NCBI GenBank assembly: GCA_900314295.1
Contig: OMUU01000132.1
Span: 1 to 46,172 of the forward strand
Direction: 5' to 3'
Length of the DNA stretch: 46,172 nt
DNA from: an uncultured Lachnospiraceae bacterium
GTDB lineage: Bacteria > Bacillota > Clostridia > Lachnospirales > Lachnospiraceae
Position numbers and translations under genes: made by a program. Under the pieces are notes generated by a model that searched no databases, was not told the DNA's origin, and was given only the letters and a program-made list of their open reading frames with translations. Numbering within the stretch: the stretch's first letter is position 1; every line of letters starts with the position of its first letter. Below, piece by piece: positions 3,998 to 37,182 of this stretch.

Positions 3998-4308
3998 TCC
4001 TACCTCTGTCCGAAAAGCTTTCTTAACTTTATCCAAACATGTTCTGAAATGCAACATTCTTCTGCGCCAAAAAATCTTCTTCTGGCGCCGGCAAGGGCTT
4101 GGTTTTCCTTCTATACAAATAACGTGCTCACATTTTGGCACATATACAATTCTTATATGGATATTCAAAAGATTTCGTATTTGTGTTTTGTATACTTCCG
4201 GCGTACACTTTATACAGCATGAATCAGGCAGCGTACCTAACGCAGTGCGGCGCACAGACTTCTCATATACGCGAGAACGTCTGTTATCTATTGAAAGGAC
4301 TCTTTATT

Positions 4309-21499: not shown

Positions 21500-21502
21500 C
21501 TA
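21500..21502 (-). other. In-frame amber codon splitting the giant gene
   Basis: TAG between ...GSKMEI and RLTLKNPTAEKASYAEF, codon 629 of a 2493-codon frame running from 23386 to 15905. The flanking protein sequence is continuous GLUG-type repeat, so the codon interrupts a domain. A single base change (for example from CAG or AAG) would explain it. Confidence 0.85.
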
Positions 21503-23386
21503 AATTTCCATTTTGCTTCCGTCTGCTGTACCGGTGCCAGCATTGATATAGCCAAAGAGTCCCGCGTAGGTGCTGCCTTTCGATCCATTATTCCCGGCAG
21601 CGGCAGCTGTTCCCGAACCGGAAGTGTTCTGATCCGAAGCGGCACCAAGCTTAAGGTTGGAGATTGCAAACCCGTTTCCGTTCAAAGACGTCAGGGCAGA
21701 ATTCGAGATACTGTAGAAGTTCCCGGCAGCAGTAAGCACGGAAGTTGCTGCTGATGTTGATCCTGATGTAGAAACCGAACTCGTATTCCATTCACTCTTG
21801 TAAGAGGAAACCGAATAGGAAGCTGTTCCCGTACCACCGCCGTTTGAAGTACCGGTCGAGGTTCTTGGGATCGCTTCGTTGCTTAGAAAGCGGATTGTCA
21901 TGCGAGACCAGTCAAGATCCTTCAGCATTTTTGCGCTTGTGATTATTGCGGAAGAATTTGAGTCGGAACCTGAAACCTGCGCTCCGGAATTCCCGCTCGC
22001 GTTCACGCCGGAAACGACCGTACTGAGGTTCTGCAGATGCCGCCCATAGGCGATCCCGGCAGTATTGGTGTCCTTCCCACTATTGGAACCATTCGCTAAC
22101 AGACTGTTGCAGGACAACGTCACCGATTTTCCTGCTCTTCCAGCAGACAAAATTTTCTTATTTCCTGTTCCGGATTCATCCGTTCCATCGTCATAGACCA
22201 GCCGTACGGTAATTGTGAGATTTTCTCCGGGAATAAGAGGTTTTTCCGTCGATACAGAATTGCAGAACTGGCTGGCAAAATGGCCTTTTACTCCATCGGT
22301 CACGCTGTCCAACGTATAAAAATACAAGCGATATTTATTTTTGACGGTATTCTGACGAATACCCCCCTTCAGATCACTCTTGTTAGTAGCAAGCATGTCG
22401 TCTGAATTTCCAAGTGTAATTTCCCTGGAGTTTCCGCTGGTCTGTCCGGTCACAGTCGCCTTGACCGTATATTTTCTCTGCGTGGCTTCGGAATCGGATT
22501 TTTCCTGCTCGGGCACAGCGACCTGAAGCATCAGCCGGTCATCGTTTTCGATGATCGCGCTGATGCTGTCCTCTGTCGCTTCGCCTTTCTTCACGGAAGA
22601 CGTACCACCACCGTAGTATCCCACCATCGGATCACTCTTCATGCGATAGGATTTGCTGGTACGATTTTCATTTTTATACGCTTCTGTATTTGCAATGGAT
22701 GTGATAATAGATTGCGGACTGGTTCCGGTTGTATTTGTATACGTTGCCTTCTTCAGATCTGCAGGCTTGCAGTACCAGACGCCGTAGACAGTCGCCGTCT
22801 CCGAGTCATATTCGATGATAATATTTCCGTTTCCACGAAGAGTCTCGTCAATGGCATCGTCCGGAAGAATCATGGACAAGATACCCGAATCGTTCGTGTC
22901 GTCAGCGCTGACCGTCACATAACGAAAATCGTGCGCTTCATCCTTATCAAGCTTTCCATCCGCCCAAGCAGCGTTCCAAGAACCTAAGCTTCCATCATAA
23001 TCCGACGGCCCTGACGAATCCTGAGCGCCGGCTCCCATTGCATTACCAAGCTTCTTTGCAACACTCCCCGGCTGATTTTCCGCCTCCGCGACATAGGTGT
23101 CCCAGTTTCCGCTTGCTCTGGATACGGTCATGTGATTCTGCGCCGCAACAAAAATCTCCCGCGCGGTGTCGTCGAGCTCGGTCTGTTTGAGGGACTTCTG
23201 ATAGCGGATGACCGCCACAAAGCCAAAAGCTGCCAGAATGCCGATGATTGCAACCGTAATCAGCATCTCTGCCAGCGTAAATCCTCTCCGGGCTCTCTCC
23301 CGTGCCGTTTTCTTTTTGTCCGGGCACACAAGATCCGCCCTTTTATCTCTATGATCCTGATGATCTGGAAAACCATTGATTCTCAT
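21500..23386 (-). CDS. Type IV prepilin-like N-terminal part of the giant surface protein
   Basis: 628 residues ending at the amber codon. A long basic leader (1-35) is followed by the prepilin peptidase site G35/F36 and the hydrophobic helix FTLAEMLITVAIIGILAAF with Glu at mature position 5 (E40), as in type IV pilins. The rest is a long Ser/Thr/Gly-rich extracellular region starting with a pilin-like alpha1 (QTELDDTAREIFVAAQNHM) and ending inside a GLUG-type module. GAGG lies about 10 bp before ATG 23386. The gene follows two smaller pilin-like genes with gaps of about 43 bp, so it is the last gene of the operon. As a whole (about 2493 residues) it would be a pilin-anchored or pilus-tip adhesin; truncated at the amber codon it would still be an exported pilin-like protein. 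Confidence 0.85.
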   Translation of the reverse strand: MRINGFPDHQDHRDKRADLVCPDKKKTARERARRGFTLAEMLITVAIIGILAAFGFVAVIRYQKSLKQTELDDTAREIFVAAQNHMTVSRASGNWDTYVAEAENQPGSVAKKLGNAMGAGAQDSSGPSDYDGSLGSWNAAWADGKLDKDEAHDFRYVTVSADDTNDSGILSMILPDDAIDETLRGNGNIIIEYDSETATVYGVWYCKPADLKKATYTNTTGTSPQSIITSIANTEAYKNENRTSKSYRMKSDPMVGYYGGGTSSVKKGEATEDSISAIIENDDRLMLQVAVPEQEKSDSEATQRKYTVKATVTGQTSGNSREITLGNSDDMLATNKSDLKGGIRQNTVKNKYRLYFYTLDSVTDGVKGHFASQFCNSVSTEKPLIPGENLTITVRLVYDDGTDESGTGNKKILSAGRAGKSVTLSCNSLLANGSNSGKDTNTAGIAYGRHLQNLSTVVSGVNASGNSGAQVSGSDSNSSAIITSAKMLKDLDWSRMTIRFLSNEAIPRTSTGTSNGGGTGTASYSVSSYKSEWNTSSVSTSGSTSAATSVLTAAGNFYSISNSALTSLNGNGFAISNLKLGAASDQNTSGSGTAAAAGNNGSKGSTYAGLFGYINAGTGTADGSKMEI

Positions 23387-23430
23387 GCTCTGTCATCCTC
23401 GATGAAAAAAACTGCTCCAGCCGGTCTGCT

Positions 23431-24057
23431 TTATTTGCCCGCATCCGCTCCGCTTCCCGTGCCTGTCGGGTATCCTGCGATCACTGCGGTTTTTACCGTC
23501 TTCGACTCCACCACGGAATCTCCGTGCAGGACAGAAATGGTATAGGTGAAATAGGGATTGCTCCCGGAAGTCTCCGCTGCAGACGGAGTAATGGAAATCT
23601 CCTTGATCTGAAGCTTCAGATTCTGTGTTCGCGTCTGTTTCGTGACAATCGGAATCGCGCCATCCGCCGAAGTTGATTTGCTCGTAGAAGAGCCGGATGA
23701 ACGCATCTGCGCATCCGTCATATAAATCGTATCGCCATCATTGTGAATATGTACGTCATATCCGCGGTTCCCGGAAAAGAAGGAAGCCTCATTTCCATCC
23801 CCTCCGATTGTGAGTGTGGTCAGATCCGCCGAGGCAAAATCATCGTCCACGGCGGCAATTGCTGTGCCGAGAAGAGTCTGCGCCTCTGCCTTCAGCGTCA
23901 TGCTCCGATAGGTGCGCACCGCCGCTGTGACCCCCGCTGCAATCGCCAGTGTCGCGAGGGACATCAGCAGCACGGTCACAAGCATCTCTGTGAGCGAGAA
24001 GCCCTTCTGTGATCTTATTCGATTGCCATTCGTAGAATAACCTCGTCTGCGTCTCAT
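23431..24057 (-). CDS. PilW-like minor pilin
   Basis: 208 residues. A basic leader (1-19) ends at the prepilin motif G/FSLTEMLVTVLL, Glu at mature +5, then the N-terminal helix. The remainder is a small beta-rich Ser/Thr domain with the phrase YDVHIHNDGDTIYM and a conserved-looking C-terminus. It sits between a PilV-like and a giant prepilin-like gene, all on the minus strand with 42-44 bp gaps. Minor pilins of this type usually prime pilus assembly or sit at the tip. No pilus motor, platform or prepilin peptidase gene is in the window. Confidence 0.82.
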   Translation of the reverse strand: MRRRRGYSTNGNRIRSQKGFSLTEMLVTVLLMSLATLAIAAGVTAAVRTYRSMTLKAEAQTLLGTAIAAVDDDFASADLTTLTIGGDGNEASFFSGNRGYDVHIHNDGDTIYMTDAQMRSSGSSTSKSTSADGAIPIVTKQTRTQNLKLQIKEISITPSAAETSGSNPYFTYTISVLHGDSVVESKTVKTAVIAGYPTGTGSGADAGK

Positions 24058-24099
24058 ATCCGTTTCTGCTCTCTCCCGGCGCTTTCTGTATCAGCGGGC

Positions 24100-24516
24100 T
24101 TAACTGTCTGCTGGAAAAAACACCGTATTTCCATTTTTTTCCGTTTTGACGGTTACATGTTCTTTGATCCCGGACAGACTATTGTCAGATGAATTCCCAC
24201 CTTCAACTGGTGAAAAGGTAATATCCTCCCCTGACCCGCTGCCCTGACTGCTGCCTTCTACCGCCAGATCATTGTGCTCACTGATGTAGTCGGAGTAGGC
24301 GGATCCCGACCTTGTGACCACCCGACGGGAAGCCTGCACCATCGTCACCAGGAGAATAGACGCCAGCGACACGATCAGAACCGCGACCAATGTCTCCGTC
24401 AGACTCTCACCTGCGTTTGAGCCGAGCTTCGCCCGAACCCGATTTTGCATCCCCCTATGCCCTTGTTGTATCTTCCTATCTTGTATGCCTCGGTGTATTT
24501 TCTGCATTCTTTTCAC
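24100..24516 (-). CDS. PilV-like minor pilin with atypical cleavage site
   Basis: 138 residues. A long basic leader (QKIHRGIQDRKIQQGHRGMQNR is internally repeated) leads to AGESLTETLVAVLIVSLASILLVTMVQ. The site would be G/E-S-L-T-E, with Glu rather than Phe at mature +1 but the +5 Glu kept. This is common in Clostridial pilV-like genes. A short polar ectodomain follows. The GTG at 24516 has its RBS too close; ATG 24507 with AAAAGGA about 11 bp upstream is the likelier start. Function beyond pilus or pseudopilus assembly is unknown. Confidence 0.78.
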   Translation of the reverse strand: MKRMQKIHRGIQDRKIQQGHRGMQNRVRAKLGSNAGESLTETLVAVLIVSLASILLVTMVQASRRVVTRSGSAYSDYISEHNDLAVEGSSQGSGSGEDITFSPVEGGNSSDNSLSGIKEHVTVKTEKNGNTVFFPADS

Positions 24517-24673: not shown

Positions 24674-25792
24674 TTATAATCCAGTCGGATTCTGCGCAGA
24701 AATCGCAGAACCGGTGTAAACCTTTGCGTTGCCCCAGCCGAATCCGCTCAGGGTGACACTTCTCGTAATGGTTACCCTGTAGGTGATCGAATCATCCGTA
24801 GGATCCGTACTCTGGGCCTCTTCTGTACTCTGAGCCTTTTTTCTACTCGAAGCTTCTTCTGTATTCGTATCCTGCGTGTACTGAAGTTCTCCGCCGTTCG
24901 CGGGGATCTTCACCAGACATCTTGCCGATGCATTCTTAAACGTGGATGTCTGTTTTCCGCTCTTATCTGCCTTATAAGAATAAATCTGCGCTTCGATGTT
25001 CAGATTCTTGTCCATGTAAAAATCCACACAGACTTTTATAGCTTCATTATCTTTTCCTGTATTAACGTTCAAAATATATGACTCTTTTTTAAACGAAGTA
25101 TTTGAACTGCTTTTCCAAGAGCTGTCGAGCGAGTCTGTGTGACCGTACATCCACGTATGATTGCCCGGGACATGATCCCCAACCCATTGGTAAGCATTCT
25201 CCTGGGAAAATCCGGGATCTTTCGTAGCCTGCCCCAGCTTGCCATCATCTTCAAGAACATAATCATTCCAGAAACCATCGATGATCTCTCCCGCGCGGAC
25301 GATCTCATATCCGGTGAGGTTCAGGTTCTTAGTACTCAAATTATTTTTCAGATTTGCAAACGGTGAACCCGGAAGCCTGCCGTTCAGATAATCCGAAGTT
25401 ACTGCCTGTGAGCGATTCGAATCCTCTGTCGTTTCTCCCGCTCCACCTGTAGGTGCCGAGTCAACATAGGTTCCGTCTCCATTTACTCTGCGATAGAAAG
25501 AAAACTGAGTACTCGTCGTCAGGGTATTCTCATTTGCATTGCAGACAACCTCGTTATCCTCATTTTTGTCGTCATCCTTGTTGGAAGTAAGCCCCAGAAC
25601 CTGTGGGAGAATTTTGTCGTCCGCCAGATTCTTCCCCGCCATGCGCCGCACTACAAGCCTTGCCGTCGAGTACACGGCCTCTTTATCCCTTTCCGTTGAG
25701 GACAGATTCTTCATACGTCCCATCGAGGAGGCTGCGGCGGCCAGAATCACAGATCCGACAATTGCGCATACCAGAAAAAACAGCAGCGCCAC
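24674..25792 (-). CDS. PilX-like / pilus-associated protein, start behind an A8 frameshift tract
   Basis: 372 residues from GTG 25792; a single membrane helix (ALLFFLVCAIVGSVILAAA) then a polar ectodomain rich in Ser/Thr/Asn with Ser/Glu repeats near the C-terminus. The GTG lies inside the hydrophobic helix and has no RBS. In the same frame the upstream codons read RNGLIRRKIRSEEGASLSVALLFF, the usual N-terminus of this Clostridial family, but a TGA closes that frame 66 nt upstream. An ATG at 25859 is followed by an A8 tract; removing one A joins it to this frame and gives a complete 394-residue protein. The first gene of the pilin-like operon. Natural extent is therefore likely 24674-25859. 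Confidence 0.78.
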   Translation of the reverse strand: MALLFFLVCAIVGSVILAAAASSMGRMKNLSSTERDKEAVYSTARLVVRRMAGKNLADDKILPQVLGLTSNKDDDKNEDNEVVCNANENTLTTSTQFSFYRRVNGDGTYVDSAPTGGAGETTEDSNRSQAVTSDYLNGRLPGSPFANLKNNLSTKNLNLTGYEIVRAGEIIDGFWNDYVLEDDGKLGQATKDPGFSQENAYQWVGDHVPGNHTWMYGHTDSLDSSWKSSSNTSFKKESYILNVNTGKDNEAIKVCVDFYMDKNLNIEAQIYSYKADKSGKQTSTFKNASARCLVKIPANGGELQYTQDTNTEEASSRKKAQSTEEAQSTDPTDDSITYRVTITRSVTLSGFGWGNAKVYTGSAISAQNPTGL

Positions 25793-26276: not shown

Positions 26277-26305
26277 TTGACTAAGTTTGTCCAGTATATT
26301 ACAGT
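26277..26305 (+). promoter_or_regulatory. Predicted promoter with overlapping operator-like dyad, rrf2
   Basis: TTGACT (26277-26282), 17-bp spacer, TACAGT (26300-26305). A near-palindrome GACTAAGTTTGTC (26279-26291) overlaps the -35 box, fitting autoregulation by the Rrf2 protein. The leader would be about 137 nt. Confidence 0.4.
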
Positions 26306-26448
26306 TATCTTGTAAATTCCATAAAATCTTTTGAGTAATACAAGAAATTATCTGACGAAAGGCATCAAGAAGATATGAAAAAGACGATATGGAGAAGAAG
26401 GTATGAATAAGAAACGACAGATTCTCACAGAGAAAAGGAAGAAAGCCG

Positions 26449-26868
26449 ATGCTGATCACCCGGGAAACTGACTACGCTTTACGAATTCTCCGCGCTCTGG
26501 CGGACGGGAAACGGCACAATGTCAAGGAGCTATGCGAGAGCGAAGCCGTTCCGCAGCAGTTTGCGTATAAGATTCTGCGAAGGCTTACAGATGCGGGTCT
26601 TGTGAAGAGCGTGCGGGGCGTCAACGGAGGTACGGAGCTTGCCGGCGATCTCGGAAGCATCACCCTTCTAGATGTCATCCGAATCACGGAATCCGACTCC
26701 TATATCTCCGACTGTATGAGCCCGGATTATACCTGCACATGGTCTGAAAAGAATTGCAGGAAATGCACCATTCATTCCAGGCTGTGCGAAATCCAGCAGA
26801 AGCTGGATCAGGAGCTTGAGAAGCAATCGATCCTGGACCTACTGGAAAACGAGGATGCCTCGTCATAA
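26449..26868 (+). CDS. Rrf2-family transcriptional regulator, putative Fe-S sensor
   Basis: 139 residues. Winged helix-turn-helix (about 1-75: MLITRETDYALRILRAL, then PQQFAYKILRRLTDAGLV, KSVRGVNGG) followed by a dimerisation helix and a Cys-rich loop with Cys at CMSPDYTC, NCRKC and RLCE. Three such Cys bind a [2Fe-2S] or [4Fe-4S] cluster in IscR, NsrR and RsrR. AAAAGGAAG precedes the start. It lies 260 bp upstream of the acyl-CoA dehydrogenase-rubredoxin gene and near the flavodiiron gene, suggesting oxygen/NO/redox control of those genes (inference). Confidence 0.88.
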   Translation: MLITRETDYALRILRALADGKRHNVKELCESEAVPQQFAYKILRRLTDAGLVKSVRGVNGGTELAGDLGSITLLDVIRITESDSYISDCMSPDYTCTWSEKNCRKCTIHSRLCEIQQKLDQELEKQSILDLLENEDASS

Positions 26869-26884
26869 CCGAATCCATCCGGTT

Positions 26885-26989
26885 AATAGAGTCCATCCAT
26901 CCCGACATCGTTCAAGGTCAACAGAGCCCATACATCCCGATACCGCTCAAGGTCAACAGAACCCATACATCCCGATATCGTTCATTCGA
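26885..26989. repeat. 35-bp tandem repeat after rrf2
   Basis: Three copies (26885-26919, 26920-26954, 26955-26989), diverging at the ends, starting 17 bp after the rrf2 stop. A further 21-bp duplication follows to about 27020. No coding sense seen. Confidence 0.85.
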
Positions 26990-27128
26990 GATAGAATATC
27001 ACTCATTTAAGATAGAAAGAAAGAGCAAACAGAGAACTGCATACCGACAAAGCGCAACGCATCATCCCGGTTAAGGGATATCAACAGATAAGGAAGATTT
27101 AAAGTATACAGGAAAAGGAGGCACGTTT

Positions 27129-29036
27129 ATGAACTATGCAACCACACAGAAACAGGAGGAGCTCCGCGCGAAGGTCCGCGCCTTTGCCGAAGCCGAAATC
27201 AAACCGTTCTCTTTCGAATGGGACAAGGGAAATATCTTCCCCTCAGAGGTCGTGCGCAAGATGGCCGATCTTGGCATCATGGGACTTCCCTACCCGAAGG
27301 AATACGGCGGCGCAGGGCTTGATGTAACGAGCTATGCCATCGCCGTAGAGGAGCTCTCGCGCGTTGACGCCGGCGTAGGCGTTATTCTCTCCGCGCACAC
27401 CTCTCTCGGCACCTGGCCCATCGCCGCTTACGGAACCGAGGAACAGAAGCAGAAATATCTCGTTCCTCTCGCAAAGGGTGAGAAGCTCGGCGCCTTCGGC
27501 CTGACCGAGCCCAATGCCGGTTCGGATGCGGGCGGCACAGAGACCACCGCGGTGCTGCAGGGCGACTATTACCTGCTGAACGGTGAGAAGATCTTCATCA
27601 CCAACGGCGGCGAAGCCGATATCTACGTTATTTTTGCCCTGACCACACCGGGCATCGGATCCAGAGGCATCAGCGCCTTTATCGTGGAAAAAGGCATGCC
27701 CGGATTCGAATTCGGCGATCACTATGACAAGCTCGGTATCCGCTCCTCGGCGACCGCTCAGCTTCTCTTCAATGATGTGAAGGTCCCGAAGGAAAATCTC
27801 CTCGGACAGGAGGGACAGGGCTTCAAGATTGCCATGAACACGCTCGACGGCGGACGTATCGGTATCGCCGCGCAGGCTCTCGGCATCTCCCAGGGCGCGT
27901 TTGAGAGCGCGGTTGCTTATTCCAAGGAGCGCGTACAGTTCCACAAGCCGATCGCTTTCCAGCAGGCCATCTCCTTCAAGATTGCTGACATGGCTACCAA
28001 GATCCGCGCGTCCCGCATGCTCGTCTACAGCGCCGCGGAACTCAAGCAGGCGCATGAGCCTTATGCGATGGAGGCCGCTATGGCGAAGCAGTACGCCTCC
28101 GACACGGCCGTACAGGTCTGCGACGAGGCACTTCAGATTCACGGCGGCAACGGCTACCTGAAGGGCATGGATGTCGAGAGATTTTACCGCGACGCGAAGA
28201 TCACGACCATCTATGAGGGCACAAACGAGATCCAGCGTCTCGTCATTTCCACCGCCATCCTCGGAAAGGCTCCGAAGGAGGCCTCTGCCCCGCTCTTCCA
28301 GCAGCAGCCCAATGTCACCGGCGCACGCAGGAAGAAAATCCTCAAGGACGGCTCCGCCCAGGAACGGGTCGACGAGCTGGTAAAGGATCTGAAGAAGGAC
28401 GGCTACGACTTCACGGTCGGCATCCCGAAGGACACCCCGATCGCGAAGGCAGAGCGTGTGGTATCCGCCGGCAAAGGCATCGGACCCAAAGAGAACATGA
28501 AGCTGATCGAAGATCTCGCGGCAGCCGCAGGCGCGGCGATCGGCTCCTCCCGTCCGGTAGCGGAAACCCTTCACTATGTGCCGCTCAACCGCTACGTGGG
28601 TATGTCCGGTCAGAAATTCTCCGGCAACCTGTACATCGCGTGCGGCATTTCCGGAGCTGTACAGCACCTGAAGGGAATTCGCGAAGCCTCTACCATCGTC
28701 GCGATCAACAAGAACCCGAATGCGCCGATCTTCAAGAACTGCGACTACGGCATTGTCGGAGACGTCAATGAGATCCTTCCTCTGCTTACGAAAGCGCTCG
28801 ATACCGGTGAGAAGAAACCCGCTCCGCCGATGAAGAAGATCAAACGCGCACAGCCAAAGAAGATGAAACCGCCGTACAGCCTCTATGTCTGTGACGGCTG
28901 CGGATACGAATATGACGCGGCCATCGGAGACCCGGCAGCCGAGATCAAGCCCGGCACCCTCTTCGAAAAGCTTCCGGAAGACTGGGTATGTCCGGAATGC
29001 GCAGAGCCGAAGGCGAACTTCACCAAAGTCGAGTAA
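27129..29036 (+). CDS. Acyl-CoA dehydrogenase / ETF-alpha FAD domain / rubredoxin fusion
   Basis: 635 residues, three modules. Acyl-CoA dehydrogenase (1-380): [14 protein letters not shown] flavin-binding region, [11 protein letters not shown] and [10 protein letters not shown] with catalytic Glu363. ETF-alpha C-terminal FAD domain (about 437-570): [41 protein letters not shown] and [12 protein letters not shown]. Rubredoxin (583-635): Cys588-x2-Cys591 and Cys621-x2-Cys624 bind one Fe. The order suggests electrons pass from acyl-CoA via FAD (dehydrogenase), FAD (ETF domain) to rubredoxin without free ETF; no ETF-beta domain is present. AAAAGGAGG lies 9 bp before ATG 27129. The rubredoxin-using flavodiiron gene is next. 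The acyl substrate is unknown. Confidence 0.93.
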
Positions 29037-29062
29037 ACGACAGCTTCCGAAAAACAAAGAGA

Positions 29063-29131
29063 CTCTCATTTACAAAGAAGCTCTCATTTACAGGGAAGCC
29101 CTCATTTACAGGGAAGCTCTCATTCATACAG
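29063..29131. repeat. 18-bp tandem repeat before the flavodiiron gene
   Basis: CTCTCATTTACAGGGAAG-type unit, 3.8 copies (29063, 29081, 29099, 29117), starting 26 bp after the stop. The 18-bp period keeps a frame open, but there is no start or RBS. Confidence 0.85.
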
Positions 29132-29296
29132 ACATATACCGTTTTATAAACAACATCCGGTTGTACTCTTTTTTCAAATGCGAAAAGTGTATACAAGCAA
29201 CTTCAATAAGCAAAACCGTACCAAAAGCGAAACCGTACAAAATAAGCCCAAAAGTGCAATCGGATCAACAACAGATCAATATCGGGAGGAAACCAT

Positions 29297-30517
29297 ATGC
29301 ATTGTGTAAGACAGGTGACTGACAATCTGTGGTGGGTCGGCGCAAATGATCACCGCACCCATCTGTTTGAGAATATTCATCCAATTCCGCGAGGAGTCAG
29401 CTATAACGCCTATCTGCTGAAGGATAAGCAGAACGTGCTTTTCGACACTGTAGACTGGTCGGCATGCCGCCAGATGCTGGAGAACATCGAGTATCTTCTG
29501 GACGGTGCAAAGCTGGACGTTCTGGTTGTGAATCATCTGGAACCGGACCATGCCGCATCCCTTCAGGAAGTACTGCTCCGCTATCCGGAATGCAAAATCT
29601 ACTGCACAGAGAAGGGCTTCATGCTGATGCATCAGTTCGGCTTCCACACCGACGGACATGAAACCATCGAGGTGAAGGAAGGCGACACCGCCTGCTTCGG
29701 GGATCACACCGTCGCATTCGTACAGGCGCAGATGGTGCACTGGCCCGAGGCCATGGTCACCTTTGACACCACCAACGGTGTTCTCTTCTCGGCGGACGCC
29801 TTTGGGTCCTTTATCGCCCTGGACGGAAAGCTCTTCAACGACGAGGTCAATTACGACCGCGACTGGATTGATGAGTCCCGCCGCTATCTCACCAATATCG
29901 TTGGAAAATACGGGCCGCACATCCAGAAGCTTCTGAAGAAGGCTGCTCCTCTTCTTCCGCAGATCAAATACATCTGTCCGCTTCACGGACTGGTGTGGCG
30001 CAGTGATTTTGATTATCTGCTGGACAAATATCAGCACTGGAGCACCTATGAGCCGGAAGAAAAGGCCGTCATGATCTGCTATGCATCCATGTACGGCAAC
30101 ACCGAGGCAGCGGCGCAGGCCCTCGCCGCAAAACTGGCGGAACTGGGCGTCACAAATACGGTAGTATATGATGTGTCGAACACACACGTATCCTATCTGA
30201 TCTCTGAAACCTTCCGCGTCAGTCACATCGTGCTGGCTTCGGTCACCTATAACCTCGGCATCTATCCCGTGATGCACAATTATCTGATGGATATGAAGGC
30301 GCTGAATCTCCAGAACCGCACCTTCGCCATCATCGAAAACGGATCCTGGGCATGCAAGTCCGGCGATCTCATGCAGGACTTTCTCAATGACGAACTAAAA
30401 GACATGACCATCCTCAACGAAAGATTGTCTCTCGCCTCCTCGATGAAGGAAGAACAGGAAGACGACCTGACAAGTCTCGCAGAGGCAATCCGGGATTCCC
30501 TGAACGGAGACTCCTGA
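29297..30517 (+). CDS. fprA: Flavodiiron protein (oxygen/NO reductase)
   Basis: 406 residues. Metallo-beta-lactamase-like diiron domain (1-250): HLEPDH (H80, E82, D84, H85), VHWPEAMVTFD, FSADAFGSF and CPLHG supply the diiron ligands. Flavodoxin domain (about 255-400) with FMN loop YASMYGNTE. Such proteins reduce oxygen to water, or NO to N2O, in strict anaerobes, receiving electrons from rubredoxin. GGGAGGA precedes ATG 29297. Same strand and 260 bp downstream of the rubredoxin fusion, which is a natural donor; a separate transcript is possible. Confidence 0.94.
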   Translation: MHCVRQVTDNLWWVGANDHRTHLFENIHPIPRGVSYNAYLLKDKQNVLFDTVDWSACRQMLENIEYLLDGAKLDVLVVNHLEPDHAASLQEVLLRYPECKIYCTEKGFMLMHQFGFHTDGHETIEVKEGDTACFGDHTVAFVQAQMVHWPEAMVTFDTTNGVLFSADAFGSFIALDGKLFNDEVNYDRDWIDESRRYLTNIVGKYGPHIQKLLKKAAPLLPQIKYICPLHGLVWRSDFDYLLDKYQHWSTYEPEEKAVMICYASMYGNTEAAAQALAAKLAELGVTNTVVYDVSNTHVSYLISETFRVSHIVLASVTYNLGIYPVMHNYLMDMKALNLQNRTFAIIENGSWACKSGDLMQDFLNDELKDMTILNERLSLASSMKEEQEDDLTSLAEAIRDSLNGDS

Positions 30518-30629
30518 CAGAAAAGCGTGCAAATCGAAGCCTCATTACAGAAAACGTATAAACCGAAGCCTCATTACAAAAAACATATAAAACAAAAACT
30601 CAAAACAAAAAGCATATAAAAAGAACACC
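30517..30629. repeat. 29-bp tandem repeat after the flavodiiron stop
   Basis: Four decaying copies (30517-30546, 30547-30575, 30576-30604, 30605-30629), the first starting at the stop codon. Copies become more A-rich downstream. Confidence 0.8.
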
Positions 30630-30691: not shown

Positions 30692-31594
30692 TCACTGTCT
30701 CCCGCGTACACCCCTGTGATGCGTTTTCTTGACCTGATAAAGCTCTCTGTCTGCTTTATGCACCAGCTCCCGCAGCTCCTCCTTGCTTTCTGCCCGTTCC
30801 ACCACGAACCCGGCGCTGCACCGGAGCGGAATGGAAATGCCGGGCAGGGAAACGGAAGAAACCGCCTTCAGCCAGCGGTCCATGCGGTGTTGAAACTCGG
30901 CCGCATCATCCGTTTTCATAAGAACCAGAAACTCGTCACCTCCATAACGAAAGCAGCATTCCTTCGGAAAGTATTGGGTAAGCAATGACGCAACGCAGAT
31001 CAGCACCTGGTCCCCTGCTTCATGCCCCGCCTCATCATTATAACGTTTAAAATAATCGACATCCGCCATCATCACAGCCACCTGGCTGCCGACATAATTC
31101 CAAAAAGCCGTGCGGACGGACAGCCGGTTTCCAATGCCGGTCAGAGAATCGGTCAGTGACAGAATCTCCAGCTTTTTATTCAGCTTCTCTACCTCAAAGC
31201 GCTGTCGGATCTGCCTGACTTCAACGTGATAACGGGTAATCATACCGGCACAAAGGAGCAGAGCCAGCGCCAGATAGTTCAAAAAACTGATTTTCGCTGC
31301 TCCGTCTTCCAATTCCAGGAGAAGGAAGAAAACGGCGTGTGCCGACAAAATCAACACGATGCTCGCCAGTGGAGGCATCGTAACGAAGCAGGTAAACACA
31401 ATTTCCACGATAAAAAAGGTCAGCATCTGCTCCCCCGAGACGTAATGGCGCAGCGATGCCACCATCCCCCAGAAAACCAGTATGCTATAATAGACGATGA
31501 TAATCGCATTTTCGCGAATCAGGTGCTTGTTCATATAGGCATCATCCCGCGAAATTCTTGTCATATGTACGGTGATATATACTGACCAGAACAC
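30692..31594 (-). CDS. Diguanylate cyclase, membrane GGDEF protein (C-terminal frame)
   Basis: 300 residues from ATG 31594, a start with no RBS that lies inside the upstream frame. About four membrane helices (to residue 125), a helical linker and a GGDEF domain with TDSLTGIGNR, ADVDYFKRYND and intact YGGDEF, so probably active in making cyclic-di-GMP. The preceding 91-codon ORF (31542-31817) supplies the first two helices in another frame; joining them would give the usual six-helix GGDEF protein. The frame change equals loss of 2 bp and lies near a TATATAT dinucleotide run (about 31571-31577). ATG at MTRISRDD is an internal alternative start. Confidence 0.82.
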   Translation of the reverse strand: MFWSVYITVHMTRISRDDAYMNKHLIRENAIIIVYYSILVFWGMVASLRHYVSGEQMLTFFIVEIVFTCFVTMPPLASIVLILSAHAVFFLLLELEDGAAKISFLNYLALALLLCAGMITRYHVEVRQIRQRFEVEKLNKKLEILSLTDSLTGIGNRLSVRTAFWNYVGSQVAVMMADVDYFKRYNDEAGHEAGDQVLICVASLLTQYFPKECCFRYGGDEFLVLMKTDDAAEFQHRMDRWLKAVSSVSLPGISIPLRCSAGFVVERAESKEELRELVHKADRELYQVKKTHHRGVRGRQ

Positions 31595-32047: not shown

Positions 32048-34942
32048 ATGAAGACCCACAGCGATTCGATTTATCACAGATTTTCTAATATTGTTACAAA
32101 AGGGGAATTAAATCTTTCCACTGACGACCCGCGGCTGCAGGCTGATTTTTTAACCAGCAACATCATCTTCTGTATAGCCGCAGGCATTCTTCTCTGTATC
32201 CTTTCCTTCATCGGAGGCGTTGGAACTTTTGCTCCATTCGGAAAAGGGTATGTCCTTTCCGGGATCAATGCCACCTTCGTTTATACCCTGATTTTTCTGA
32301 CGAATCTCATTTTCATCCGTCTGCTTCTTTACGCCATGAAGCAATCCCCCGTAGAAATAAAACGGGGAGCCGGAAAGCTGACCTGTTACGTATTTATGTC
32401 TGTGAATATGATCCTGGCGAACCTGACGTTCTACACCACGCAGAAAGGCAGCAGCTTTTTCTTTGAATATATCCTGGTCACGTCAATCGTCTATCTTGTG
32501 CCGAACTCGGATCTTCGCACCTTTATCCGGAATGCTCTCTTTAATGTCACGGCGTTGCTTGTTGTCCTGGCTTCCTTTCACCGGGCCCTTGCCTGGCAGG
32601 ACCTCGTGGATATCGTTGCGCTGCACATCATCTGCGGGTTTGTGAACTGGGTCCGCTGGCTTTCTTTTCTTCGCACGGAGGCCGCTCTTTTCTCCCTTGA
32701 GAATAAAAAAGATCTCTTTTACGCCGAGAGCCGGACCGACGGACTGACCGGTCTGTTAAACCGCTCCGCTCTTCGGAACGATTTTGCAACCTTTATCAAT
32801 CAAAAGCTCTGTGTAGCCTTGATGGATTTAGATTCCTTCAAGAAGTACAACGACACCTTTGGGCATGAATATGGCGACCAGATACTGACACTCACAGGTC
32901 AAAAACTTAAAAAGGCTTTCCATGGGTATGAGGACAGCTGCTATCGATATGGCGGAGACGAATTTCTTGTGATTTCCAAGGATAATGCCCGTCTGTTCCA
33001 TCAGAAGCTCGAACAGTTTCAGCGCTTCTGCAGCGCAAGCCGGACGGAACGTGCGATTTCCTGCAGCATCGGATACTGCAGCGGCATTCCTCACACGGAA
33101 ACCGATCTGCGCATGCTGATCAAAACTGCCGACAACTTTCTCTATCAGTCGAAGAATAAAGGGCCGGGAAAAATGAGCGGGAGTCTCTCCCCTTACAGTT
33201 TCACCTCACCAATGCCAATGGCGGAACAGCCGTCCGCAGCAGATAACCTGAAAAGTCTGGATGACGCGGTAAAGATCTTTGATAAGCGCCTGATGTCCCA
33301 AAAGGAATGGTCGATTGCCTACCTGAACGTCAACCGCTACGCAGAAATCAATGAGTCCATCGGTTACCGCAATGGTGAGCTGCTTCTGGAATCGATCATC
33401 CGGACAATCCAGCAATATTTCCCGGATTCTCTCCTGATCCATCGGGAAATCGATCATTTTGTGCTTTTTTCCACCCTTCCGGACCCGGAATTCACACAGC
33501 AGATTCGAAAAATACAGAATGATGTATCCGGCCTGGAGAGCCGACGGATGGTGATTGTCCGGGCAGGCGTCTACCATCACGGCTCCGGCGACCGGCCAAC
33601 CGATTTTCTCACAGGTATGTATAACGCCAGGTACGCCTCGGACAAGGCAAATGATGCCGCCAGGAGTGACACCTATCTCCGTGTCTATGATGAAGCACTC
33701 GATCAGCAGCGCGCCAAAGAGACGTTTGTGCACAACCATTTCATAAATGCACTGGAAGCAGGATCCTTCGTTCCTTATTATCAGCCGATCGTCGGCTCTC
33801 TCTCCGGTACAACCTGCGGATTTGAAGCCTTGAGCCGCTGGATCGATCCGGAAAAGGGAACCATTCCGCCCGGGAATTACATTCCTTACCTCGAGGAAAG
33901 CTGTGAAGCTTACCGTCTTGATCTCAATCTTCTGGAACAGGTATGCAGGGATCTGCAGAAACACAGAGACCAGTTTCCATCGAAACTGTTTGTCAATGTC
34001 AATTTGTCACAGACCGACTTTAAGATCATGGATATGCCGGAGAAGATTGATCGTATTGTATCCCGGTATCAGATTCCCAGAGAACAGATTCAATTTGAAA
34101 TCACAGAGTCCGCCTTTGCAGAAACAGATCTGATCCATGAATCTCTGAAAGTTCTTAACGAACGCGGCTATCGTGTGTGGATGGATGATTTCGGCGTAGG
34201 CCAGTCCTCTCTCTCCGCCTTCCATAATTATAAGGTTCAGGGCGTTAAGATTGATCAGTCCTTCTTTGCCGATATCGCAAGCCCCCGAACCAAGATTATC
34301 ATCCAGAGCATTATCGACCTTTGCCACGAGACCAACAGCCTTCTGATCGCTGAGGGCGTCGAAACCCAGGAACAGCTCTGGTATGCGCAGCAATGGGGTG
34401 TGAATTTCATTCAGGGCTTCTACTTCAGCAGACCGATGCCTCTGCATGCGCTTCTTGCTTCTTCCTTTATACGCAATCTGACCAATGAGACTACCGATCA
34501 GTTCTATCAGAAGGCTGCTGAGGTCAATCTTCTGAATAATATCTCAAATAGAGAACGTTTTTCCCTGGATACACACACGCATCCGCTGTTATTTGCCAGA
34601 GCCGTCCTTGTACAGTACCCGGATCAGAGCCTCACGTTGCTGCGTATCAATGATGCCATGCATCAATTATTATGGGAATCCAAAGCCATCGACACACAAA
34701 AACAGTACTCCATAAAAAAAGACAGCGTATTTGCAACCGCTCTCACAGAGAATATACAAAAGATCAGTGGGAAAAGCACCACCATAGATTTTCCGATGGA
34801 GCTCCAGAGCAGACCATATAACGGCCGACTTGTTCTTCTCGCCCAAAAGAGCGATGAAGGAATGACCGCTTATTTGTTCTCTCTCTCCAATTTTGTGATT
34901 ACGCTTCCCTTGAACTCTGGTAAACAGGGGCCGAACCACTGA
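32048..34942 (+). CDS. Membrane-bound GGDEF-EAL cyclic-di-GMP protein
   Basis: 964 residues. About six membrane helices (35-215), GGDEF domain with intact YGGDEF (about 301-306), a second degenerate GGDEF-like region (about 405-560, HREIDHFVLF instead of GGDEF), then an EAL phosphodiesterase domain: FEALSRW (about 592), NVNLSQ, ITESAF, MDDFGVGQSSLS, KIDQSF and AEGVETQEQ, keeping the metal-binding and catalytic Glu/Asp/Lys set. About 120 residues of unassigned sequence end the protein. Both synthesis and breakdown of cyclic-di-GMP are chemically possible. It diverges from the GGDEF gene at 30692-31817. Confidence 0.93.
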   Translation: MKTHSDSIYHRFSNIVTKGELNLSTDDPRLQADFLTSNIIFCIAAGILLCILSFIGGVGTFAPFGKGYVLSGINATFVYTLIFLTNLIFIRLLLYAMKQSPVEIKRGAGKLTCYVFMSVNMILANLTFYTTQKGSSFFFEYILVTSIVYLVPNSDLRTFIRNALFNVTALLVVLASFHRALAWQDLVDIVALHIICGFVNWVRWLSFLRTEAALFSLENKKDLFYAESRTDGLTGLLNRSALRNDFATFINQKLCVALMDLDSFKKYNDTFGHEYGDQILTLTGQKLKKAFHGYEDSCYRYGGDEFLVISKDNARLFHQKLEQFQRFCSASRTERAISCSIGYCSGIPHTETDLRMLIKTADNFLYQSKNKGPGKMSGSLSPYSFTSPMPMAEQPSAADNLKSLDDAVKIFDKRLMSQKEWSIAYLNVNRYAEINESIGYRNGELLLESIIRTIQQYFPDSLLIHREIDHFVLFSTLPDPEFTQQIRKIQNDVSGLESRRMVIVRAGVYHHGSGDRPTDFLTGMYNARYASDKANDAARSDTYLRVYDEALDQQRAKETFVHNHFINALEAGSFVPYYQPIVGSLSGTTCGFEALSRWIDPEKGTIPPGNYIPYLEESCEAYRLDLNLLEQVCRDLQKHRDQFPSKLFVNVNLSQTDFKIMDMPEKIDRIVSRYQIPREQIQFEITESAFAETDLIHESLKVLNERGYRVWMDDFGVGQSSLSAFHNYKVQGVKIDQSFFADIASPRTKIIIQSIIDLCHETNSLLIAEGVETQEQLWYAQQWGVNFIQGFYFSRPMPLHALLASSFIRNLTNETTDQFYQKAAEVNLLNNISNRERFSLDTHTHPLLFARAVLVQYPDQSLTLLRINDAMHQLLWESKAIDTQKQYSIKKDSVFATALTENIQKISGKSTTIDFPMELQSRPYNGRLVLLAQKSDEGMTAYLFSLSNFVITLPLNSGKQGPNH

Positions 34943-35256: not shown

Positions 35257-35266
35257 TTATTTCTTC
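35231..35266. repeat. 20-bp-period duplication over the oleate hydratase stop
   Basis: CTTATCTTATTTCTTC occurs at 35231-35246 and 35251-35266; the second copy contains the stop codon of the minus-strand gene. Confidence 0.8.
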
Positions 35267-37182
35267 TTCATATGTTTCAGTGCCGCCACACCTGCCACAA
35301 CCGCAGCTACCGCACCGACAGCTTTCGTGACTCCGCTGCTCTTTGCTTCTTCTACCGCTGCGGCCGCCTTCTTCTTGTCAATCACCGGTTCAAAATCCTT
35401 CTCCTCCGCCGCTCCAAGCCGGATCAGAAGGGTTTCCAGATCGGTGTTGTGCGCAAGCTTGAGGGCTCCCATAATTGCAGCCTTCTCCCCTGCCGCGATT
35501 GGCCAGTCCTTGATCATCTTGCCATCGTTCATCTTCACACCTGCTGTGATCAGATCACGAATATCATAGATAGAACCCCAGACCTCCGGGACGCCACGGT
35601 CTACCTTGCACAGGGTATAAACCGCCTCCATTCCGGTACGAATCGAGTACTCTGTTGTAAATACCGTGTCGCGCGGCGTCTCCGCATACTGTCCCAGAAA
35701 TGCCAGGTTTACGGATCCCTCCGGCACAACGAGCGGACGGTCTCCGTACTTTCTCGGCTCAAAGAAGCTCGTTACGTAGGGCATCATGCAAGGTGTAGTA
35801 TTGCACTCCTTGTCCGCAAGCTCGTCAATATGCTCCACGGGAATTCCGATATGATACAGCCACTCCGCGCAAAGCTCACGACCGCTGCACAGGAACATCG
35901 GCTTCTGCACATAATCGCCGCAATCATCCCAGCAGTTCAGTCCGTAAACCCAGATCAGGCAGTGATCATCCGGCTGATCCTGGAACTGTCCCTGCCGGTT
36001 GATTGTCCAGCTGATCAGCCAGCTGGAATCCTTCGCCGTGACAATTCCTCCGGTTACGACCTTTCCCGAAAGCGGATCCCGGTGACAGATTTTCTCGATT
36101 GCCTCCAAAATCTCCTTGTTTGAGGTGTCCACCGTCCAGGATTCCCAGCTCGTTTCCTTAATATCGCGGAAAAATACGTCCGGATGTCCAAAGGCGTCAT
36201 CCTGCGCAGCCAGCTTCTTCCACAGCTCAACGGACGGGCCCTGTCCGTTCACAATATTCACCTCCGGCGCATGCGTCTGATCGCCGTAAGCAGAACCATC
36301 CCCTTGCGATCCGTTCGTCACAAAGACCAGATCATCCTCGGTCAGATCAATAGCCTTCTCTTCCCCGTCCTGTGTATATTCCAGTCTGACGGCCTGTTTC
36401 TTCGCCGGTTTGCAGTCACAGACAATATTTGTCACCTGGGTGTTGTACGCAATCACCCCGCCGGCATCCTGAATATACTTTACCATCGGAAGAATCATAG
36501 ACTCATACTGATTGTACCGAGTGAAGCGGAGTGCGCTCAGATCCGGCAGTCCATCAATGTGATGAACATAACGCTGCATGTACTTCTTCATCTCGAGAGC
36601 ACTGTGCCATTTTTCAAACGCAAACATGGTCTGCCAGTAGATCCAGAAGTTTGTCTTGTAAAAATCCTCGTCGAACATATCGTCGATCGTCTTATCTTCA
36701 AGCTCCTTATCACTGGCAAACATCAGCTTCATCAGCTGCTTCTCTGCGTTTTTGTTCAGATCATACTTCCGGTCTGTATGCGCGTCCTGCCCCTGCTTCT
36801 CCGTCACACGGCAGAGCGAATAGTTCGGATCCTCTTTATTCAGCTTATAGTACTCGGAAAAAATAGTCTCCCCGGGATTGACGATCGACGGAATCGAACG
36901 GAACAAATCCCACATACACTCAAAGTGATTGTCCATCTCACGGCCGCCGCGCATGATGTAACCCTTCTGCGGATCATGAAAACCATCGCACGAACCTCCC
37001 GCGAGCGGAAGTGACTCGAACAGGGTGATGTTCTCGCCCGGCATCTGCGCATCACGGATCAAATAGCATGCAGCGGAAAGTCCGCCGAGGCCAGTTCCTA
37101 CAATGTACGCATGTTTCTTCTCGATTCCTTCAGGTTTCTCAGGTTTTGCAAATGCTTCATAATTTCCACTGCTATAATACAT
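35257..37182 (-). CDS. ohyA: Oleate hydratase (myosin-cross-reactive antigen family)
   Basis: 641 residues. FAD-dependent hydration of oleic/linoleic acid cis-9 double bond to 10-hydroxy fatty acid, a detoxification step for unsaturated fatty acids. The N-terminal dinucleotide fold YIVGTGLGGLSAACYL, RGGREMDNHFECMWDLF with the catalytic Glu region, and FVTNGSQGDGS are present. Length is at the long end; the last 35 residues (AAAAVEEAKSSG, a hydrophobic Ala/Val segment, then HMKKK) are an extra tail that may bind membrane. GGAGGT precedes ATG 37182. It has its own promoter and operator-like dyad. Confidence 0.95.
   Translation of the reverse strand: MYYSSGNYEAFAKPEKPEGIEKKHAYIVGTGLGGLSAACYLIRDAQMPGENITLFESLPLAGGSCDGFHDPQKGYIMRGGREMDNHFECMWDLFRSIPSIVNPGETIFSEYYKLNKEDPNYSLCRVTEKQGQDAHTDRKYDLNKNAEKQLMKLMFASDKELEDKTIDDMFDEDFYKTNFWIYWQTMFAFEKWHSALEMKKYMQRYVHHIDGLPDLSALRFTRYNQYESMILPMVKYIQDAGGVIAYNTQVTNIVCDCKPAKKQAVRLEYTQDGEEKAIDLTEDDLVFVTNGSQGDGSAYGDQTHAPEVNIVNGQGPSVELWKKLAAQDDAFGHPDVFFRDIKETSWESWTVDTSNKEILEAIEKICHRDPLSGKVVTGGIVTAKDSSWLISWTINRQGQFQDQPDDHCLIWVYGLNCWDDCGDYVQKPMFLCSGRELCAEWLYHIGIPVEHIDELADKECNTTPCMMPYVTSFFEPRKYGDRPLVVPEGSVNLAFLGQYAETPRDTVFTTEYSIRTGMEAVYTLCKVDRGVPEVWGSIYDIRDLITAGVKMNDGKMIKDWPIAAGEKAAIMGALKLAHNTDLETLLIRLGAAEEKDFEPVIDKKKAAAAVEEAKSSGVTKAVGAVAAVVAGVAALKHMKKK

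Follow-up and report, generated by a model that had tools for sequence, protein, structure and literature searches.

We analysed a 46,172-nt stretch of DNA from an uncultured Lachnospiraceae bacterium (contig OMUU01000132.1 of assembly GCA_900314295.1; hereafter the window), in which three consecutive genes encode an Rrf2-family regulator, a three-domain fusion protein and a flavodiiron protein (FDP). Gene calls and Pfam agreed with a preliminary description of this DNA on the coordinates of all three genes, which lie on the + strand. The fusion and the FDP match the published description of the two subunits of butyryl-CoA oxygen oxidoreductase (BOOR), and a predicted promoter with an overlapping candidate operator precedes rrf2. 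The features of the locus are:

26277..26305, + strand: predicted promoter and overlapping candidate operator (consensus scan; conservation before Rrf2)
26449..26868, + strand: Rrf2-family regulator, 139 amino acids (Pfam PF02082, TIGR00738)
26869..27128: gap between rrf2 and the fusion gene, 260 bases, with tandem repeats (35-base unit, 3.0 copies; 21-base unit, 2.0 copies)
27129..29036, + strand: fusion protein, 635 amino acids, BCR subunit of BOOR (Pfam order, nearest structures, conserved residues)
29037..29296: gap between the fusion and FDP genes, 260 bases, with tandem repeats (18-base unit, 3.9 copies; 17-base unit, 2.3 copies)
29297..30517, + strand: class A FDP, 406 amino acids, oxygen-reducing subunit of BOOR (Pfam, structures, diiron ligands)

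The reading of the second gene as a fusion of acyl-CoA dehydrogenase, ETF-alpha FAD domain and rubredoxin was borne out by both Pfam order and nearest structures. Pfam placed Acyl-CoA_dh_N/M/1 (residues 6-377), ETF_alpha (438-518) and Rubredoxin (586-631) in that order, and the protein divides into a butyryl-CoA-dehydrogenase-like domain (1-378), a linker, an ETF-alpha FAD domain (about 438-558) and a rubredoxin (586-631). The solved structure nearest to the N-terminal part was 5ol2_C (488.8 bits), the acyl-CoA dehydrogenase of a Bcd-Etf complex that is presumably from C. difficile; the middle aligned with residues 202-329 of 5ol2_A, the C-terminal FAD domain of ETF-alpha within the ETF large subunit, and the end aligned with rubredoxins in the structure-database comparison. 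ETF-beta and the N-terminal part of ETF-alpha were absent from the matches listed by Pfam and by the structure comparisons. Glu363, Arg475, Ser493, His513 and the four rubredoxin Cys were invariant in 84 of 84 aligned fusions; we take Glu363 to be the catalytic glutamate and the next three to be the flavin-holding positions of ETF-alpha.

The next gene 3' of the fusion in the window gene list had been called a flavodiiron protein, and Pfam, structures and diiron ligands all agreed. It joins a metallo-beta-lactamase-like diiron domain to a flavodoxin domain (two-domain, class A), and its best structure matches were a flavorubredoxin, a nitric oxide reductase (1ycf), which we take to be Moorella FprA, and a rubredoxin:oxygen oxidoreductase (1e5d). 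At the ligand positions, which we assigned on the assumption that they follow known FDPs, His80, Glu82, Asp84, His85, His148 and Asp167 were present in 83 of 83 aligned FDPs and His230 in 82, with one gap.

Conservation of the gene order was assessed in named genomes scanned with the ETF-rubredoxin half of the fusion, from which we used the best 80 of at least 439 confirmed relatives. An FDP gene lay no more than 0.9 kb downstream of the fusion, on the same strand, in 79 of these 80 loci (median gap 38 bases), and in the 80th (L089) the contig ends 84 bases past the fusion. This rules out a chance neighbourhood. In 46 of the 80 loci an Rrf2 gene precedes the fusion on its strand; among the 70 that have 800 or more bases of upstream sequence there were 45, and a tblastn re-check of 36 loci yielded none beyond these. 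At fusion loci the FDP is thus close to obligatory, whereas the regulator is optional. The preliminary description had staked its proposal on the genes being linked elsewhere, and they are. Titles in the set name Lachnospiraceae, Oscillospiraceae, Eubacterium, Erysipelotrichaceae, Peptostreptococcaceae and others; Fusobacterium is named in only one title among these best 80 loci, that of L036 (F. naviforme, of uncertain true placement). Among 61 genomes (the window's own and 60 relatives), a whole-fusion match was found in seven, six of them full length and one cut by a contig end; one of the seven (G044) belongs to another family. These data support the view that a butyryl-CoA-fed oxygen-removal enzyme is a widespread, tightly kept gene pair among gut-type anaerobes. 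As a separate observation, open frames of 157-278 amino acids on the + strand lie between fusion and FDP in three loci (L073 6739-7212, L083 6733-7566, L096 846-1679).

The pair corresponds to a published enzyme. In Fusobacterium nucleatum, according to the available text of PMC12288474, the FDP gene (FN1423) forms a bicistronic unit with a gene in which Bcd, the EtfA C-terminus and rubredoxin are fused; the two proteins assemble as an alpha4beta4 complex, in which the oxidation of butyryl-CoA is coupled to the reduction of O2 to water and which is described as having no nitric oxide (NO) reductase activity. The same source gives the name BOOR, states that many obligate anaerobes of Firmicutes encode it, and describes Bystrom & Wolthers (Biochemistry 2024) as the primary work; the function is repeated, with the genes given as FN1423-FN1424, in the available text of PMC12630350. 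The electron path put forward in the preliminary description, from acyl-CoA through two FADs and the rubredoxin iron to the flavodiiron protein and O2, fits this report (PMC12288474) and by analogy is very probably right; this supports the view that reading the raw sequence had led to a path already measured in a homologue. Two parts of that description need narrowing. It named an oxygen/NO reductase, and the NO half is doubtful because the F. nucleatum complex, as described, did not reduce NO (PMC12288474); by the same analogy the FDP substrate is probably O2, and the label should read oxygen. It also named a fatty-acyl fuel, and although acyl-CoA-driven removal of O2 is supported, the fuel is most likely butyryl-CoA rather than fatty acyl-CoA in general.

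The top-scoring NCBIfam model for the fusion was acryloyl-CoA reductase AcrC (488.4 bits, under its cut-off of 640), and Bcd-like enzymes act reductively in fermentation, both of which would suit a fusion working mainly in reverse, or a general acyl/enoyl-CoA reductase that receives its electrons at the rubredoxin end, the FDP being incidental in either case. We give this almost no credence: FDPs are terminal reductases of O2 or NO, and one lies close downstream in 79 of 80 loci. The F. nucleatum complex, moreover, is reported to run from butyryl-CoA to O2 (PMC12288474).

The regulator scored 99.2 bits against Pfam Rrf2 and 94.7 bits against TIGR00738 (cut-off 73.3). The Cys-rich loop that had been pointed out in it is real, with C89, C96 and C106 invariant in 47 of 47 aligned Rrf2 proteins as three conserved candidate cluster cysteines, but C103 and C113 of the window copy are not conserved. 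Asp8 was kept in 44 of the 47, with two Glu and one truncated row (L034, a short frame without residue 8) making up the remainder. Judged from this conservation, Asp8, Cys89, Cys96 and Cys106 are candidate Fe-S ligands, and we infer that the protein carries an Fe-S cluster. It is neither IscR proper (NCBIfam IscR equivalog, 43.9 bits against a cut-off of 207.55) nor NsrR proper (NsrR equivalog, 53.8 bits against 182). Regulators at fusion loci fell into two recognition-helix classes, class A (for example QQFAYKIL; 34 loci) and class B (for example AVTLKIL; 14 loci), and the window's own genome held no other close Rrf2 of the BOOR-linked kind, with two matches at 25 and 27% only. The Rrf2 protein is a probable O2- or redox-sensitive autorepressor.

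The predicted promoter before rrf2 consists of a -35 hexamer TTGACT (26277-26282), a 17-base spacer and a -10 hexamer TACAGT (26300-26305), the hexamers making 9 of 12 consensus matches; promoter-like sites in the region numbered 3, not above the shuffle mean of 3.7. Over the -35 hexamer and the spacer lies the dyad-like candidate operator TTGACTAAGTTTGTCCA (26277-26293). The class A consensus is TTGACT-N5-AGTCAA, or in degenerate form TTGAC-N8-TC[CA]A, with its left half formed by the -35 hexamer and its right half in the spacer, and the site is a perfect palindrome in four loci (L003, L032, L036 and L037). The degenerate pattern stood before rrf2 in 26 of 34 class A loci, representing 13 of 17 class A clusters (60% identity), and in none of the 14 class B loci. 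A different dyad, G[GT]AC-N7-GTAC, was found in 9 of the 14 class B loci, directly after TATAAT in those nine, and in none of the 34 class A loci.

Several controls bear on this pattern. Other spacings from 0 to 15 gave no class A loci, save two at N3; the remaining locus sequence gave 6 matches in 1,040,660 bases (both strands, both palindrome readings masked); and over 300 rounds of dinucleotide shuffling the pattern turned up in 0.08 of the 34 loci on average and never in more than 2. One locus outside the pattern derivation (L054, left out of the 47-protein Rrf2 alignment, of the 34 and 14 class counts and of the cluster count) carries TTGACAATACTTGTCCA (4275-4291), about 60 bases ahead of its Rrf2 gene. 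A tighter pattern, TTGACTNNNNNDGTCMA, had a single match in the window's own 2.69-Mb genome, at the window site, and each of the four among 16 genus genomes that carry rrf2-fusion-FDP (G000, G002, G007 and G009) had it in one place, before rrf2; the tighter pattern matched in 30 of the 61 genomes, so a match alone is not rare. An operator directly before the fusion itself was ruled out: neither pattern occurred within 150 bases upstream of the fusion in any of the 48 loci with Rrf2, and among the 27 loci without an adjacent rrf2 a search of 300 bases gave one case. This one case is L053, where a class A-type palindrome precedes the fusion by 54 bases and no neighbouring rrf2 was found; the site may respond to a regulator encoded at a distance.

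TTGAC is itself the -35 hexamer, and TTGAC-N8-TC[CA]A could on that account be a mere promoter feature, or the site of another regulator, with Rrf2 acting elsewhere; the L053 site without rrf2 beside it and the class A loci that lack the full pattern point the same way. We find this doubtful. No part of a sigma-70 promoter accounts for TC[CA]A at a distance of exactly N8, none of the 14 class B promoters carries the pattern while nine carry the other dyad, four loci have perfect palindromes, and L054, from outside the derivation, has the site. The candidate operator, conserved and specific, and the split into two regulator-operator classes are what this analysis adds; a literature search, with poor coverage of subscription papers, found no published operator for the Rrf2 beside BOOR, and the main text of PMC13404960, a preprint on this regulator, makes no mention of an operator, promoter, binding site, palindrome, DNA motif or upstream.

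The likeness of this site to that of IscR suggests how it might work. The IscR type 1 consensus is ATASYYGACTRWWWYAGTCRRSTAT (available text of PMC6599224), with the core GACT-N5-AGTC; of this core the left half is retained in the window site TTGACTAAGTTTGTCCA, along with GTC from the right half. In E. coli, oxygen is reported to weaken IscR binding at type 1 sites (PMC12594620), and an IscR type 1-like site therefore offers a ready model for the switch.

A different sensor would apply if the operon served mainly NO detoxification under an NsrR-type NO sensor. Asp8 with three Cys is the ligand pattern cited for NsrR in the available text of PMC13404960, and nitric oxide reductase flavorubredoxins were the best FDP matches. 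We consider this very unlikely, given that the regulator reached only 53.8 bits against the NsrR cut-off of 182. The candidate operator is also, as we take it, unlike the E. coli NsrR site. Its layout resembles that of IscR type 1 (PMC6599224), and the BCR-FDP complex of F. nucleatum is described as lacking NO reductase activity (PMC12288474).

We consider it highly likely that rrf2, fusion and FDP form a butyryl-CoA-fuelled operon for the reduction of O2 to water, with an Fe-S Rrf2 repressor acting at 26277-26293. Without oxygen, Rrf2 with an intact Fe-S cluster would sit on the operator, over the -35 hexamer and spacer, and keep the three genes off; oxygen would damage or oxidise the cluster, the repressor would leave, and fusion and FDP would be made. 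The fusion would then oxidise butyryl-CoA to crotonyl-CoA at the dehydrogenase FAD. This FAD would hand the electrons on to a second one, in the built-in ETF-alpha domain; from there they would travel one at a time over the rubredoxin iron into the FDP, with its FMN and diiron centre, which would reduce O2 to water. Crotonyl-CoA would return to butyryl-CoA through a separate Bcd-EtfAB complex, so that oxygen removal would draw on the butyrate cycle. In that step Bcd-Etf uses NADH to turn crotonyl-CoA back into butyryl-CoA. The earlier claim of a route without free ETF or NADH fits BOOR as far as the direct path goes, but NADH enters indirectly through this step. In the window's own genome, genes for crotonase, 3-hydroxybutyryl-CoA dehydrogenase, Bcd, EtfB and EtfA stand next to one another (L121; by eye, with Bcd and EtfA also by sequence match), and two rnfC genes score over cut-off; the cell should accordingly make butyryl-CoA and be able to recycle crotonyl-CoA.

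We lean towards a broader proposal, in which the BOOR operons of gut Clostridia would each have a dedicated, autoregulating oxygen switch: a distinct Rrf2 family would act on an IscR type 1-like palindrome over its own promoter, apparently with a one-operon regulon in the window genus, and a second branch, with a TLK-type recognition helix, would act on G[GT]AC-N7-GTAC just downstream of the -10 element. If this is true, evolution has given butyrate makers oxygen sensors with a single target, through which butyryl-CoA is channelled into O2 removal. With the operator predicted, the oxygen control proposed for BOOR becomes testable, and with it a link between gut oxygen and butyrate output.

Several points weigh against these proposals. 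First, the operator pattern was derived from the same 34 class A sequences in which it was later counted, so the shuffles alone are no independent test; the spacing, class and locus controls outweigh them as evidence. Second, the pattern is absent from 8 of the 34 class A loci, one of which (L066) has just 61 bases upstream. Third, among the other 12 genus genomes, eight lack the tighter pattern and four have one match elsewhere; in one of these four (G014) the fusion is cut at a contig end. Fourth, an adjacent Rrf2 is missing from 25 of the 70 fusion loci whose upstream sequence reaches 800 bases or more, and a same-genus relative (G001, locus L007) has the fusion-FDP pair with no rrf2 in 1.5 kb upstream. 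Fifth, the 260-base intergenic gaps leave room for internal promoters; a consensus promoter scan found none in them. (A terminator scan gave 5 sites, none 3' of the FDP.) Sixth, the likeness to F. nucleatum BOOR is one to its published description (PMC12288474) rather than an alignment to FN1423/FN1424. Lastly, BOOR is not the sole oxygen sink of its own genome, because two more FDPs are encoded there, at 43% and 31% identity. As an observation on its own, a second FDP of this genome, of 596 amino acids (contig C112, L122 1066-2856, - strand), has a C-terminus that reads by eye as flavin-reductase and rubredoxin parts, and is perhaps a pyridine-nucleotide-driven oxygen reductase.

The surroundings of the operon showed further features. 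Short tandem repeats with units of 14 to 35 bases occur in every gap around the three genes (26367-26413, 26881-27017, 29054-29124, 29204-29242 and 30517-30621). The closest relative (L032, fusion 94% identical) has different repeat arrays and an rrf2-fusion gap of 90, not 260, bases; a tandem array was seen at the operon in 7 of 46 other rrf2-bearing loci, L032 counted, and in neither of the same-genus loci L003 and L037. Directly 3' of the operon lie c-di-GMP genes for a GGDEF protein (30692-31594, - strand) and a GGDEF-EAL protein (32048-34942, + strand; both by Pfam), followed by an oleate hydratase gene (35257-37182, - strand; NF010584, 860 bits against a cut-off of 567). On the other side, three proteins encoded at 21500-24516 (- strand) have type IV prepilin-like N-termini by eye, and adjoin a 372-amino-acid protein without a Pfam match (24674-25792, - strand).

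A wholly new system is ruled out by the literature, and the operon is a member of an already known one, with the enzyme described in 2024 and the Rrf2 link in a 2026 preprint. With BOOR of F. nucleatum, as described, it shares the Bcd-EtfA C-terminal-rubredoxin fusion, the adjoining two-domain FDP and the expected path from butyryl-CoA to O2; it differs in having rrf2 before the pair and 260-base gaps. The preprint, of July 2026, places an Rrf2 regulator, UniRef50_C0FN14, beside the BOOR pair in gut Clostridia, with the fusion in 123 and the FDP in 115 of 149 neighbourhoods, and proposes that oxidation of this regulator's Fe-S cluster induces the BOOR genes (available text of PMC13404960). Our operon matches this system in an Rrf2 gene beside BCR and FDP, in the three Cys and Asp8, and in the proposed derepression by cluster oxidation; C0FN14 was compared by description, and the present analysis adds the candidate operator and the division into two classes of regulator. 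The candidate operator resembles the IscR type 1 site in its GACT-N5-AGTC core and spacing, which the perfect class A palindromes keep in full and the window copy in part, and in its place between -35 and -10, like that of site B of P. aeruginosa iscR (PMC6599224). As with IscR, an Rrf2 protein with three Cys has a site before its own gene, whereas the cysteines stand at 89/96/106 in the window protein and at 92/98/104 in IscR, and the target is not the isc operon. Finally, the NAD(P)H-driven routes that are usual for FDPs (PMC12288474) likewise lead electrons through the FDP to O2; in the window they would enter from acyl-CoA, and none of the three genes is an NADH:rubredoxin reductase.

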